From Fidelibacterota bacterium (lineage in GTDB: Bacteria; Fidelibacterota; Marinisomatia; Marinisomatales; UBA1611): 64,000 nucleotides of DNA. This document shows, one piece after another, positions 54,168 through 59,401 of the stretch. A model generated the notes under the pieces. That model saw nothing but the letters and a program-made list of their open reading frames with translations. It was not told the origin of the DNA and did not search any database. Location of the stretch: assembly GCA_002708715.1 (NCBI GenBank), contig PAPB01000017.1, forward strand, positions 2,760-66,759, given 5' to 3'. The position numbers and the translations under genes were made by a program. Position 1 is the first letter of the stretch. The number at the start of each line of letters is the position of its first letter.

Positions 54168-55034
54168 TTAATAAAATTTAGTTTCTTCATCCCATCTTTT
54201 AAAAAAGTCAAGAACGTCAACATAATTATCTACCTGATAATTTTGTTTTATGATATTGCTAGGTTTTTTAGCAATAATACAAAGTACATCGGAATCTATA
54301 TACCGGTTTATATTTTCAATCTTAAAATTACTGACTTTTAATAAGTTAATAATAGAGTTACTACTAAAAAAATATGGGTTTAAATCTGCCGGCTTCTCAC
54401 TAAAATACATGCTTAGCGGCTTCTTAAAAGGCACTAAAATCCTACTGCCTTCTGCGATAACAATACGTCCCCCAACTTTTAACATATCATATGCTACTTT
54501 TACCATATTTAAACAAGATTGAGAATTAGTTAACGTCCACATTAATGTTACTATATCAAATTTATTTTTTTCAAATTGAGTACTTTTACTAAAATCTTCT
54601 ATGGTACCTTTAAAAAAATAATAATTATTCTTTTTTAACTGAGAACAATTTTTCTTTGAAGGCTCAATCCCAAATAAATTTGTCTTCAAACCATAACTTG
54701 AGATAATTTCAAAAAATTGTCCTTCTCCCGCACCAATATCGCATATTTTTTTATTATCCAAACCTATTTCTGTATCAATATAATCTGCAACGTATGTTTG
54801 ACGGGCTTTGACAGCAGGTATTCGCGCTGTATAAGTTTTGTCATTAAATTTTCCACCATAGATTTCATTAGACCATGCTTCCGCAATTTCTTTTGATGAC
54901 CTCAAATTTTTTACTCTCACTAGTCCTGTTGATATACAAACATGAATTGGCTGGTTTTTTGTATATTTTCTGCTGCATGGTATTTCAATCATATCCCCTT
55001 TACCATTTAAATCTTCAATTATTTTTTCTTTCAT
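54168..55034 (-). CDS. SAM-dependent methyltransferase, last gene of the amidotransferase operon
   Basis: The ATG at 55034 is chosen over the longer frame to 55076, which would start inside the upstream gene. The 288-aa protein has Cys-containing N-terminal segments (IPCSRKYTKNQPIHVCISTG), a YGGKFNDKTYTARIPAVKAR block and the SAM motif ICDIGAGEGQFFEIISSYGL, with LKVGGRIVIAEGSRILVPFK. It lies 8 bp after the N-acetyl-sugar amidotransferase gene, so the substrate is probably the same sugar pathway. Confidence 0.85.
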   Translation of the reverse strand: MKEKIIEDLNGKGDMIEIPCSRKYTKNQPIHVCISTGLVRVKNLRSSKEIAEAWSNEIYGGKFNDKTYTARIPAVKARQTYVADYIDTEIGLDNKKICDIGAGEGQFFEIISSYGLKTNLFGIEPSKKNCSQLKKNNYYFFKGTIEDFSKSTQFEKNKFDIVTLMWTLTNSQSCLNMVKVAYDMLKVGGRIVIAEGSRILVPFKKPLSMYFSEKPADLNPYFFSSNSIINLLKVSNFKIENINRYIDSDVLCIIAKKPSNIIKQNYQVDNYVDVLDFFKRWDEETKFY

Positions 55035-55042
55035 TTCTATTA

Positions 55043-56167
55043 CTATTTTTTTGGTAAGGGATATTTTAATTCCCACTCCTCATTTGTTTTTTTCCATATT
55101 TCATCATTCCGATGCTTATCAACAATGCTATAAAAATCATCTTTTGAGAGATCCAAGTATTTTAAAATTTCATCGAAATAATATTCAGGAAATTCACCAT
55201 CATATTTATGACATAATTCTAATGCCTCTTTCCTTTCCATATGGTTATTTTGTATAAATCTTGAAGTATCTCTAATACATCTACCAAAACCAAACTTAAT
55301 ATATTGCATATAGTAGTATAAGTCGTCAAATTTATCATCTAGGCTATCAAAACCTTGAAATGTTCCTAATGTACGACCACGAGGATTTTCATTGAAGTTA
55401 TATTTCTTTTTAACATATTTAAAATTTTCAAACATACTCCATTTCCTAAAATAAGAATAATAATAAGCTTTAATTCCAGCATCATTTAATTCTTTATTAT
55501 TTGGATATATATAGGGATTTAAGTCACGGAGAGAAACATTATCAGCTTCCCAATTACGAGGATCATCACCAATCTGATGCTCAATTACTTCAGTAAAATC
55601 TCTACTTCTCATTGATTCTTCACTTAATACTTTTCCGCCATATTCACTTTCACCATGCTCAGCATAAAACAATAATTTTATATTCATTTTTAAAGCTATT
55701 TTTACTGGGATAACATTTATACCAGCATCCCATGCAACTTTAGGGTTTCCTCTTTCAATAAAGAATCTCTTAGCCAAAATCCTATGTACTTTTTGATTAG
55801 GTCTAAAATAAATATGATCAAAACCAGCATTTATTAAAGCTTCTCGGTTTTCGTTTCCAATTTTATTTGGTAGCATTGGTGAAAAAGTTACTAATAGTGG
55901 ATTCATTTGATGCTCGTATTTCATTTTATATGCAATAGCACTACTATCCTTCCCTCCACTCCATGGTATAATACAATCCCAAGAACCATTATTCGCTCTA
56001 TGCTCATCTAATATAATATTCAGTTCATGGAGCCTATCCTCCCAGTTTATATTATCTTTTTGATTACTATTTAAACAAGCATTGCAAATTCCATTTTTAT
56101 TAAAAACTATTCTCGGTCTTGAACTAGGAGTAACACAGGATTTACAGTATATAATTATATTATCCAT
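55043..56167 (-). CDS. N-acetyl sugar amidotransferase (WbpG/PseA family)
   Basis: The 374-aa protein has an N-terminal zinc ribbon (YCKSCVTPSSRP and GICNACLNSN), then a PP-loop ATP site IIPWSGGKDSSAIAYKMKYE near residue 65, and HGESEYGGKVL near 170. That is the layout of the family that uses ammonia to form an acetamidino group on a sugar (WbpG in Pseudomonas LPS, PseA in legionaminic/pseudaminic acid work). Ammonia normally comes from HisH/HisF-like partners, which are the next two genes upstream. Confidence 0.9.
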   Translation of the reverse strand: MDNIIIYCKSCVTPSSRPRIVFNKNGICNACLNSNQKDNINWEDRLHELNIILDEHRANNGSWDCIIPWSGGKDSSAIAYKMKYEHQMNPLLVTFSPMLPNKIGNENREALINAGFDHIYFRPNQKVHRILAKRFFIERGNPKVAWDAGINVIPVKIALKMNIKLLFYAEHGESEYGGKVLSEESMRSRDFTEVIEHQIGDDPRNWEADNVSLRDLNPYIYPNNKELNDAGIKAYYYSYFRKWSMFENFKYVKKKYNFNENPRGRTLGTFQGFDSLDDKFDDLYYYMQYIKFGFGRCIRDTSRFIQNNHMERKEALELCHKYDGEFPEYYFDEILKYLDLSKDDFYSIVDKHRNDEIWKKTNEEWELKYPLPKK

Positions 56168-56186: not shown

Positions 56187-56933
56187 CTATATTCTAACTT
56201 CAATATTTTTATTTTTCATATATTTTTTCGCATTTAAAATACTACTCTCTGTAAAATGATAGATATTTGTAGTACAAACAGCCGAACCTTTACCAATCTT
56301 TATTCCATCAACAAAATCTTGCCACTTCCCAGCGCCGCCTGAAACTAAAACAGGAATGGTCACTACATTTGAAATTAGAGAATTTAATTTATTATCATAC
56401 CCTTCCAGGGTTCCATCTTTATCAATAGATGTTATCATTATTTCACCAGCGCCATAATCTTGAGCTTTTTTGGCCCATGATTGTGGCTCTAACGATCTCA
56501 TTTTTGAACCAAAATTTGTGAATACTTTATATATATCATTTTCAGTGATTTTTGCATCGATTGAAACAACAACACACTGAGAACCATATTTTTCTGCAGC
56601 CTGAGTAATAAGTTCTGGATTTTCGTAAGCTTCTGTATTAATTACAATCTTGTCAGCACCTATATTTAATAGTTTAGAAAAATCATCTAATGATGTTACT
56701 CCTCCTCCAACAGAGAGAGGGACAAAACAATTAGCCGAAAAATCCTCAACCACTTTATAAAACTTTTCTTTTGAATTATCTTTTCCTCTAGTAATATCTA
56801 AAATTATTATTTCATCAACAGACCAACTATCAACAAAATTTATGGTATACCTGTAATCAGGTATAAAATCTCTAGTCCTAAATAGGACACCATCATTTAT
56901 AGTTAGAACAGTTATCAATCTTTTTCTTAACAC
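56187..56933 (-). CDS. HisF-like cyclase paralogue of glycan amidotransferase system
   Basis: The 248-aa TIM barrel matches HisF (VPLSVGGGVTSLDDFSKLLN, VVVSIDAK, GAGEIMITSIDKDGTLEGYD, VLVSGGAGKWQDF). Compared with Thermotoga HisF from memory, the catalytic Asp at position 11 (CLDVKDG) is Thr here (VLTINDG), while the Asp in SIDAK and in TSIDKDG remain. Loss of D11 argues against the imidazole-glycerol-phosphate cyclase reaction of histidine synthesis. The channel and docking face may be kept for ammonia delivery. It is 2 bp from the hisH-like gene. Confidence 0.92.
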   Translation of the reverse strand: MLRKRLITVLTINDGVLFRTRDFIPDYRYTINFVDSWSVDEIIILDITRGKDNSKEKFYKVVEDFSANCFVPLSVGGGVTSLDDFSKLLNIGADKIVINTEAYENPELITQAAEKYGSQCVVVSIDAKITENDIYKVFTNFGSKMRSLEPQSWAKKAQDYGAGEIMITSIDKDGTLEGYDNKLNSLISNVVTIPVLVSGGAGKWQDFVDGIKIGKGSAVCTTNIYHFTESSILNAKKYMKNKNIEVRI

Positions 56934-56935
56934 TT

Positions 56936-57553
56936 TTATTTTTTTTCAATAAAATTTTTTAAAACTTGCAAGCCAAAATACTGACTTTTTTCTGGATGAA
57001 ATTGAGTAGCGACTATATTCTTATCCTCAATAGCTGAAATAAAATCAATACCATAATGACATTTTCCAATTATTATTCTTTTATTGTTACATACGACATG
57101 ATAACTATGTACGTAGTAAAATAACGTATCCTTTGGAATTTCTTTCCACAAATATGAATCTTGAACTTTAATCATATCATTCCATCCAACATGGGGTATA
57201 ATTATTTGTTTATCATTTCTATTTATTTTTCTTACAATAGCATCAATAAAACCAAGACCTTTATGAGCCCCAAACTCACTACTTTCTTTAGCCAATAGCT
57301 GAAATCCTAAACATATTGCAAAAATAGGTTTTTTCTGTTCAATTATTAATTCTTTTAATGGTTCTATTAAACCCAGTTTCTTTAAACTTTCCATTCCATC
57401 TGCAAATGCACCAACACCAGGTAAAATCAGCTTATCTGACTGCTTTAATTCAGAAATATCATTTGTAATAGATACTTCACCTCCTATCCTTTCTATAGCT
57501 CCATAAACAGAACGAAGATTTCCTAAACCATAATCAATAATTGAAATTTTCAT
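56936..57553 (-). CDS. HisH-like glutaminase subunit
   Basis: The 205-aa class I glutamine amidotransferase has DYGLGNLRSVYGAIERIGGE, LPGVGAFADGMESLKK, the nucleophile in FAICLGFQLLAKESSEF near residue 80, and VATQFHPEKSQYFG with the catalytic His-x-Glu near 185. It releases ammonia from glutamine when docked on the HisF-like barrel. Position between asnB-like and hisF-like genes, and a non-histidine context, suggest it serves sugar amidation. Confidence 0.93.
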   Translation of the reverse strand: MKISIIDYGLGNLRSVYGAIERIGGEVSITNDISELKQSDKLILPGVGAFADGMESLKKLGLIEPLKELIIEQKKPIFAICLGFQLLAKESSEFGAHKGLGFIDAIVRKINRNDKQIIIPHVGWNDMIKVQDSYLWKEIPKDTLFYYVHSYHVVCNNKRIIIGKCHYGIDFISAIEDKNIVATQFHPEKSQYFGLQVLKNFIEKK

Positions 57554-57574: not shown

Positions 57575-59401
57575 TTAATTTTGATCCAAAAAAATTTTAC
57601 TATTTATAAAATTAAATAAAAACTTACTATAACTGTTTTTCGTATTCCTGTTATTAAATAACTCTTTAATCATATTTCTATTTATTATCTGAAATATATC
57701 TGATGAGGGGTCTAATAAATAATCATAAAAGTTTTTATCATCAATATTAAATATAGAATAGAAAGAAGTATTAAATCCTTTTTTTGTTCTATCCAACCTT
57801 ACTTTATCATTTAAAATACCTTTCATCGCTTGACGTAAGATAAATTTCGAAAAACCATTATTAATTAAAAACTTTCCCGGTATTTTATAAGCAAAATCAA
57901 ATAATGCAGGATCTAAATATGGACTACGGTTTTCTATTGAATAATACATTGAGTTTAAATCATCTTCATGTAATATTACGGGTGTTATTTCATGAAACAT
58001 TTCGTTCAGCATCCTATTCCGCATAAGATTAGGAGTATAACATTCCTCATTAAAATTAGTATTTATTGGATTTGTCAAATATTTTGAAAAAATATCGCTA
58101 TCATCATATATATGCCCTCTAAATTTTGGATTATTAATAAATAAATGAGAGTCTTTTATCATTGGATTACTTATTAATGGATTTATATCTGATTTCCAAA
58201 AATTTAAATTTTTAATAAATAATGATTTATCCTGCTTAATTTCATTCAAATGCAGAAGAAAATGGTCATAATATCCTGTAAAAATTTCATCAGCTCCAGT
58301 TCCCGAGAATGCCACCCTGATATCTTGTTCTGAGATTTTCTCTGATAGCATTGAGTGTATTAAATATGAGATAGTTGATATCGGAGAATCATGATATTCT
58401 ACAAGATTTTCTAATCTATTTATCATATTATCATAACCAAGTTCAATAAGATTGCTACCACACCCATTATCCTCAATTGTGTTAATTATATTTTCTTTTT
58501 CATTATATCTAATATCTTTATCTATAATCGAAAATGTATTTACGCTATAATTAAAATGTTTTTTCGCAATAGATACAAGTGAAGAGGAATCGATACCACC
58601 ACTTAAACAGAAAGCCATTGGTGCATCAGAACGCAATCTAATTTTCATGCTATTTAAAAGATGTTCTCTTGTCCCTTCTATTGCATCGTGAATATTAATC
58701 TTTTTATCTGGACTATATACAGGTTCCCAATATCTATTTTTTTTTATATTTAATTTATTATTAACTAATAAATTTGTTCCATATCCTAACTGAAAAACTT
58801 GCTTAAAAAATGTCTGATTTTTTTTATTTAATGATTTATATCCAAGCCCCAAATAATTCGTTAACATAGATAGATTTATTTCAGTTTTATTTTTACTTAA
58901 TGATTGAATAAATTTTATTTCTGATCCAAAGTATAGTCCGTGATTTGTTTGATATATAAAAAGTGGCTTTTCACCAAATCTATCTCTGGATAAAAATAAT
59001 ACCCTTTCATTTTCATCCCATATTGCAAATGACCACATACCGTTAAAATACTGGACACATTTTTGGCCATATTCTTCATATGATTTGATTAGTACCTCAG
59101 TATCAGAATTAGTTCTGAAATGGTGACCTTTTTTTTTTAAATCATTTCTTAATTCTATGTAATTATAAATTTCACCATTAAAAATTAATGAATGATTCTT
59201 ATTTCTAAATGGTTGATTAGAGCGTTCATTCATATCAATTATACTTAAACGACTATGTAATAAATAAACATAAATATCATTAGTTTGAAAATCATTAGCA
59301 CTTTGATTATCGGGACCACGATTTTTCATCAAGCCTAGCGTATGATTTATTAAATGTTTATCAATCCTTTTTTTCCCTATATACCCAGCGATACCACACA
59401 T
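57575..59401 (-). CDS. AsnB-type glutamine-dependent amidotransferase
   Basis: The 608-aa protein has N-terminal Cys2 (MCGIAGYIGK) glutaminase domain with LMKNRGPDNQS, LSIIDMNERSNQPF, LIFNGEIYNY, and a C-terminal ATP-PPase domain with LSGGIDSSSLVSIA near residue 255 and SGTGADEIFTGYYDHF near 365. By sequence it is asparagine synthase family. In the first position of a glycan amidation operon it may instead amidate a uronic-acid sugar, as WbpS does in Pseudomonas; sequence does not separate the two. It heads the operon. Confidence 0.9.
   Translation of the reverse strand: MCGIAGYIGKKRIDKHLINHTLGLMKNRGPDNQSANDFQTNDIYVYLLHSRLSIIDMNERSNQPFRNKNHSLIFNGEIYNYIELRNDLKKKGHHFRTNSDTEVLIKSYEEYGQKCVQYFNGMWSFAIWDENERVLFLSRDRFGEKPLFIYQTNHGLYFGSEIKFIQSLSKNKTEINLSMLTNYLGLGYKSLNKKNQTFFKQVFQLGYGTNLLVNNKLNIKKNRYWEPVYSPDKKINIHDAIEGTREHLLNSMKIRLRSDAPMAFCLSGGIDSSSLVSIAKKHFNYSVNTFSIIDKDIRYNEKENIINTIEDNGCGSNLIELGYDNMINRLENLVEYHDSPISTISYLIHSMLSEKISEQDIRVAFSGTGADEIFTGYYDHFLLHLNEIKQDKSLFIKNLNFWKSDINPLISNPMIKDSHLFINNPKFRGHIYDDSDIFSKYLTNPINTNFNEECYTPNLMRNRMLNEMFHEITPVILHEDDLNSMYYSIENRSPYLDPALFDFAYKIPGKFLINNGFSKFILRQAMKGILNDKVRLDRTKKGFNTSFYSIFNIDDKNFYDYLLDPSSDIFQIINRNMIKELFNNRNTKNSYSKFLFNFINSKIFLDQN

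Follow-up and report, generated by a model that had tools for sequence, protein, structure and literature searches.

A HisF-like barrel without its first catalytic aspartate in a predicted acetamidino-sugar gene run of a Fidelibacterota bacterium, and a broken aspartate pair in HisF homologues next to WbuX

The question raised by this locus is whether a HisF-like protein that carries a threonine in place of the first catalytic aspartate, and whose gene lies between those of a glutaminase and a sugar amidotransferase, still serves histidine synthesis. In HisF, the general acid and base of catalysis are provided by D11 and D130 (PMC11350729). The locus is located in a window of 64,000 nucleotides (the whole stretch of DNA that was analysed, from contig PAPB01000017.1 of a Fidelibacterota bacterium), which contains the following features.

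56187..56933, minus strand: hisF2-type gene, 248 aa, with Thr11, the equivalent of Asp130 and a short loop1; GTG start at 56933
56901..56903, minus strand: codon 11, act (Thr), aligned to the catalytic Asp11 of HisF
56556..56558, minus strand: codon 126, gat (Asp), aligned to the catalytic Asp130 of HisF
56936..57553, minus strand: hisH-type glutaminase, 205 aa, C/H/E triad intact (TIGR01855, 230.7 bits, cut-off 105.4)
55043..56167, minus strand: wbuX/pseA/wbpG-type N-acetyl sugar amidotransferase, 374 aa (TIGR03573, 311.1 bits, cut-off 203.2)
54168..55076, minus strand: SAM-dependent methyltransferase, 302 aa as listed, a candidate acetamidino N-methyltransferase
57575..59401, minus strand: AsnB-like amidotransferase, 608 aa, upstream of hisH (TIGR01536, 391.5 bits, above the cut-off)

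The five genes form a run transcribed in the order AsnB, HisH, HisF, WbuX (PseA, WbpG), methyltransferase. The gaps are 21 bp between AsnB and HisH, 2 bp between the hisH stop and the GTG start of the complete hisF ORF, and 19 bp between HisF and WbuX, while the methyltransferase ORF overlaps wbuX by 34 bp. The WbuX-type protein scored above its family cut-off and its translation contains the PP-loop SGGKDS and a CxxC...GxCxxC tetracysteine motif, the WbuX type being defined by a PP-loop SGGxDS and a tetracysteine motif (PMC10607449). The scores listed above thus bore out the sequence-only reading, which had placed a HisH-like glutaminase next to the HisF-like gene and a WbuX/PseA/WbpG-type amidotransferase downstream of it. 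The contig looks chromosomal, and a small mis-binned foreign contig is unlikely, because secA-like, ATP synthase and parA/parB-like genes were read from translations elsewhere in the window.

Alignment with the Thermotoga maritima HisF reference placed VLTINDG of the window protein over CLDVKDG, with a threonine as residue 11, and D126 over D130, as the same reading had described. The beta1-alpha1 loop (loop1) is shorter by five residues (11 instead of 16, T. maritima positions 19 to 34) and a threonine occupies the position of G20. Loop1 residues such as G20 are required for fast turnover in HisF, where the G20A substitution lowers kcat about 100-fold (PMC11350729). The A224-S225 phosphate site is replaced by T-N. 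The window protein is 36-42% identical to HisF (36% to that of T. maritima), and the barrel fold gave a TM-score of 0.90 to the T. maritima HisF structures 1thf and 1gpw. An AlphaFold2 model made from a three-row alignment was a usable barrel (pTM 0.82) in which loop1 was below pLDDT 50, and its loop geometry was therefore given no weight. IGPS channels ammonia through the HisF barrel, and structures titled for ammonia tunnelling were among the structural matches. The residues R5/E46/K99/E167, which form the ammonia gate of IGPS, are all retained in the window protein. It therefore resembles T. maritima HisF in its fold, its gate residues and its HisH partner, and differs from it in the absence of Asp11, the short loop1, the G20T and S225N changes and its location in a glycan locus rather than in a his operon.

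Comparison with the curated families showed that the window protein failed the cut-offs of HisF (TIGR00735, 214.3 against 294.55), WbuZ (TIGR03572, 236.3 against 299.7, still its best-scoring NCBIfam model) and AglZ/HisF2 (NF038364, 195.8 against 310), and because of these three failures it was filed under none of them by score. Of what characterizes HisF, it has Asp130, but it lacks Asp11, a full-length loop1 with G20, a score above the cut-off and a histidine pathway in its genome. With WbuZ it shares the gene trio, together with HisH (WbuY) and WbuX, in a saccharide locus, but a record named WbuZ (L117) belongs to a sister clade in which Asp11 persists and Asp130 has been lost. With AglZ/HisF2 it shares a HisF barrel devoid of Asp11 that adjoins HisH and WbuX in glycan loci, and it groups on the tree with the barrels lacking Asp11; it differs from AglZ/HisF2 by a threonine rather than a leucine at position 11, by a loop1 five residues shorter and by the linked methyltransferase. 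Judged from its sequence, the window protein groups with HisF2 and would work like it.

We then looked for the histidine pathway in the genome to which the window belongs (2.47 Mb, 45 contigs, 88.9% complete, so that the absence of a gene is not certain). Two full-length HisF-like genes were found, the window copy and one at positions 1059-1823 of contig C15. The C15 copy lies behind a HisH gene, has a leucine at position 11 and passes the AglZ/HisF2 cut-off (NF038364, 345.2 against 310); the end of a WbuX gene is located upstream of it, at the contig edge. The second, canonical hisF whose presence had been suggested as a check was thus absent from this genome, its only other full-length copy being of the HisF2 type. 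HisD and IGPD (HisB) gave no match in this genome, while 13 of the 14 control genomes were positive, and HisA was not found in the 88.9% of the genome that is represented. Two weaker, partial PF00977 matches do not look like HisA: the one on C9 reads, by eye, as a geranylgeranylglyceryl-phosphate-synthase-like barrel, and the one on C37 scored under the family cut-off. Because the second full-length HisF-like gene is of the HisF2 type as well and HisA, HisB and HisD were not found, the organism looks auxotrophic for histidine. The pathway is patchy in the family, since some genomes of the same family have hisA-hisF pairs. The possibility that the window gene is the sole hisF of a prototroph, which would have spoken against its repurposing, was rejected, as HisD and IGPD gave no match in this 88.9% complete genome and the C15 copy is present besides. 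A role of the window protein as a histidine enzyme is very unlikely given its Thr11, its short loop1, the glycan gene run, the Leu11 of the other copy and the failure to find HisA, HisB and HisD.

Contig C37 of the same genome also carries a nonulosonate-type cluster (L255:4265-9039) with cytidylyltransferase-like, Gfo/Idh-like, DegT-like aminotransferase, formyltransferase-like and NeuB genes, the names other than NeuB having been read by eye. It holds the single NeuB of the genome and is a candidate source of the sugar of the window cassette.

In order to determine how general the loss of a catalytic aspartate is, we compared 77 HisF homologues encoded within 6 kb of WbuX or fused to it, drawn from WbuX searches in three phyla, plasmid records and fetched neighbourhoods, with 34 HisA-neighbouring HisF (111 in total). 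Both D11 and D130 were present in none of the 77 WbuX-associated proteins and in all 34 of the HisA-neighbouring ones. Among the 77, Asp11 was lost in 60, Asp130 in 20 and both in 3. The states at positions 11 and 130 were LD (49), DE (13), DQ, ID and TD (3 each), and DH, EE, EQ, FD, LP and MD (once each). The gate residues read REKE in 111 of 111 barrels, and the C/H/E triad was intact in 80 of 80 HisH partners. The broken aspartate pair in the neighbours of WbuX is not due to chance. The loss of Asp11, which had been proposed as the signature of repurposing, holds for the window protein but was rejected as a universal mark of HisF2, since 17 of the 77 keep D11 and lose D130.

When the two trait columns were omitted from the alignment, the tree placed the barrels lacking D11, among them the window protein, on one side of a branch with a support of 98 (97 for the Thr11 group) and the WbuZ-type clade that loses D130 in a separate group with a support of 100, while a single origin of all HisF2 received a support of 33. 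Because the 77 fall into only two clades, they reflect a small number of ancient events passed on to many lineages and not 77 independent losses. The only exception among the glycan-locus copies is a WbuZ-type barrel on a plasmid of Azospirillum lipoferum 4B (L118, 3489-4265), which keeps both aspartates; no WbuX was present within its fetched flanks, and the WbuX-like gene of the record is about 13 kb away. On a plasmid of Rhodobacteraceae bacterium SC52 (L119:3501-4274), a gene named hisF in the record adjoins WbuX and has Leu11, and this name is likely a mis-annotation as a histidine gene.

The window protein is most probably, as judged from its residues and context, a HisF2 ammonia adaptor between a HisH-type glutaminase and WbuX that would no longer make imidazole glycerol phosphate. 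According to this model, the HisF2 barrel would take up the ammonia that the adjoining HisH-type glutaminase releases and carry it to WbuX, on which the exit of the barrel would dock; WbuX would activate the N-acetyl group of a sugar with ATP and swap its oxygen for NH, so that a sugar of a surface glycan acquires an acetamidino group, and the adjacent methyltransferase may then N-methylate this new group. The conduit reading is favoured by the fact that every WbuX-associated barrel has lost a catalytic residue while the gate ring and the glutaminase triad never change; the Thr11 group has lost, besides Asp11, G20 and five loop residues. Extended to the family, the proposal that acetamidino HisF2 are dead TIM-barrel conduits, disabled in two ways (an Asp11 and an Asp130 clade) with the gate kept, docking on or fused to WbuX, and that the Thr11 cassette leads to an N-methylated acetamidino sugar, is tentative. 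Several findings count against the adaptor model. The phosphate-site residues are partly retained in the Thr11 group, so that binding of a ligand may persist there. Some WbuX loci have no HisH/HisF in their fetched flanks, so that the pair is not always needed. The distribution of the 77 cases over two clades and the intact aspartate pair of the A. lipoferum barrel also count against the model.

Two natural single-chain fusions of HisF2 to WbuX (L212 and L214), in which about 50 residues link the two parts, suggest that ammonia is handed over directly. They are sisters on the tree and therefore probably result from one event.

HisF2 is unlikely to catalyse a new reaction or to act as a ligand sensor, with a phosphorylated sugar or nucleotide bound at the former PrFAR site that would either be acted on or switch HisH on. 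Such a function would account for the retention of most of the phosphate site in the Thr11 group (G82, N103, T104, G177 and G203) and for the nearly constant presence of one catalytic aspartate. However, the two clades keep different aspartates, loop1 is cut and S225 is an asparagine in the Thr11 group, and the groups showed no new active-site motif in common.

A direct supply of ammonia to WbuX by AsnB in the window operon, with HisH-HisF2 dispensable or auxiliary, is about as unlikely an explanation. At four loci (L089, L212, L213 and L239, the first from the same genus as the window genome), an AsnB of the same subfamily as that of the window lies immediately before WbuX, and HisH and HisF are absent within 5 kb, an arrangement that suggests interchangeable glutaminase partners for WbuX. 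In the window, however, HisH and HisF2 follow AsnB; they are intact, conserved across phyla and inserted between AsnB and WbuX with gaps of 2-21 bp. The other Thr11 cassettes have no AsnB adjoining HisH (that of L044 is about 4 kb off), and AsnB may amidate a carboxylate instead. A working histidine HisF that merely lacks Asp11 would fit the overall fold, the identity to HisF and the kept Asp130, but is scarcely credible against the cut loop1 and lost G20, the sub-threshold HisF score, the glycan operon with WbuX, the missing HisA, HisB and HisD, and the separate canonical hisF of a relative (genome G228) that has the same gene.

Other associations of glutaminases with WbuX-like sequences were observed. 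In contig C15 of the window genome, an ORF of 669 aa (L105:10154-12163) encodes a class II glutamine amidotransferase domain (MCG start, GATase_6/7) and, fused to it, a distant WbuX-like half that scored 116.6 bits with TIGR03573, under the cut-off. L223:3350-5191 has the same make-up, and further long ORFs with WbuX-like halves are present in L107, L108, L175, L176, L178-L180 and L250.

A scan of 84,980 species genomes with six short peptide patterns, which is not exhaustive, gave as its best match L044 (56% identity), from the proteobacterial metagenome-assembled genome G228. In L044, wbuX, hisH, hisF with Thr11 and the methyltransferase gene adjoin one another, close to NeuB and cytidylyltransferase genes, and G228, the closest relative, has a separate canonical hisA-hisF pair (L110) besides its Thr11 copy. 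A WbuX search in the phylum Planctomycetota gave L245 (genome G663), in which hisH, hisF with Thr11, wbuX and the methyltransferase gene are arranged in the order of the window. The Thr11 short-loop subclade is rare and was seen as three members in three phyla, each with the same methyltransferase. The identities among the three cassettes are 54-56% for HisF, 59-64% for WbuX, 49-55% for HisH and 45-52% for the methyltransferase, and the Thr11 proteins of L044 and L245, like that of the window, score below the HisF, WbuZ and AglZ/HisF2 cut-offs. Searches for the subclade in viral contigs, in 398 genomes of the phylum of G228 (with a strict threshold) and in the phylum of the window genome yielded nothing beyond L044, and no WbuX was found in a phage collection.

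The methyltransferase of the window gave methyltransferase domain matches, and its profile matched, among the loci scanned, only the three Thr11 cassettes and a broken remnant in L245. From gene order, it is possibly an acetamidino N-methyltransferase. N-methylation of the acetamidino group of legionaminic acid by a locus-encoded methyltransferase is described in Legionella and Campylobacter (PMC3766260, PMC13306086), and the window gene resembles Legionella ORF8 and Campylobacter PtmH, of the acetimidoyl N-methyltransferase step, by genetic context alone, as a methyltransferase in an acetamidino-sugar glycan locus. The window copy (54168-55076) is devoid of the N-terminal paired-cysteine (zinc-knuckle-like) motifs found in the L044 and L245 copies. 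The remnant (L245:8561-9421) is a degenerate chimera of the N-terminal part of WbuX and the C-terminal part of the methyltransferase, apparently left by a duplicated cassette with an internal deletion.

The operon context, the presence of the cassette in two other phyla, the kept gate and HisH triad, the fusions and the failure to find a histidine pathway all sustain the initial proposal of a repurposing for acetamidino-sugar synthesis rather than histidine synthesis. This proposal is right in kind but not new, the general function (WbuXYZ, AglXYZ, HisF2/AglZ) being already in databases and in the literature. A survey of 2021 (PMC8305728) reports, in the part of its text consulted, hisF2/hisH2 copies outside the histidine operon to which that part assigns no role. 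What our analysis adds is the quantitative rule on the aspartate pair and the gate, the two HisF2-WbuX fusions, and a Thr11 short-loop cassette that includes a methyltransferase. No such rule for HisF2 was described in the open-access literature found, which is weak evidence of novelty; the rule, the fusions and the Thr11 subclade appear new, judged against open-access literature only.

Genes of this kind that are named hisF, such as the Rhodobacteraceae plasmid copy, can introduce a false histidine biosynthesis into genome reconstructions. A rule by which the presence of both aspartates denotes HisF, and the absence of one together with a WbuX neighbour denotes HisF2, would help to re-annotate them by sequence alone. 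For structural studies, the fusions of HisF2 to WbuX are ready-made single-chain constructs. If the conduit model is true, an enzyme barrel would have become a simple pipe that delivers ammonia to a different acceptor, and nature would have provided in these proteins a test of how channelling is separated from catalysis in IGPS.
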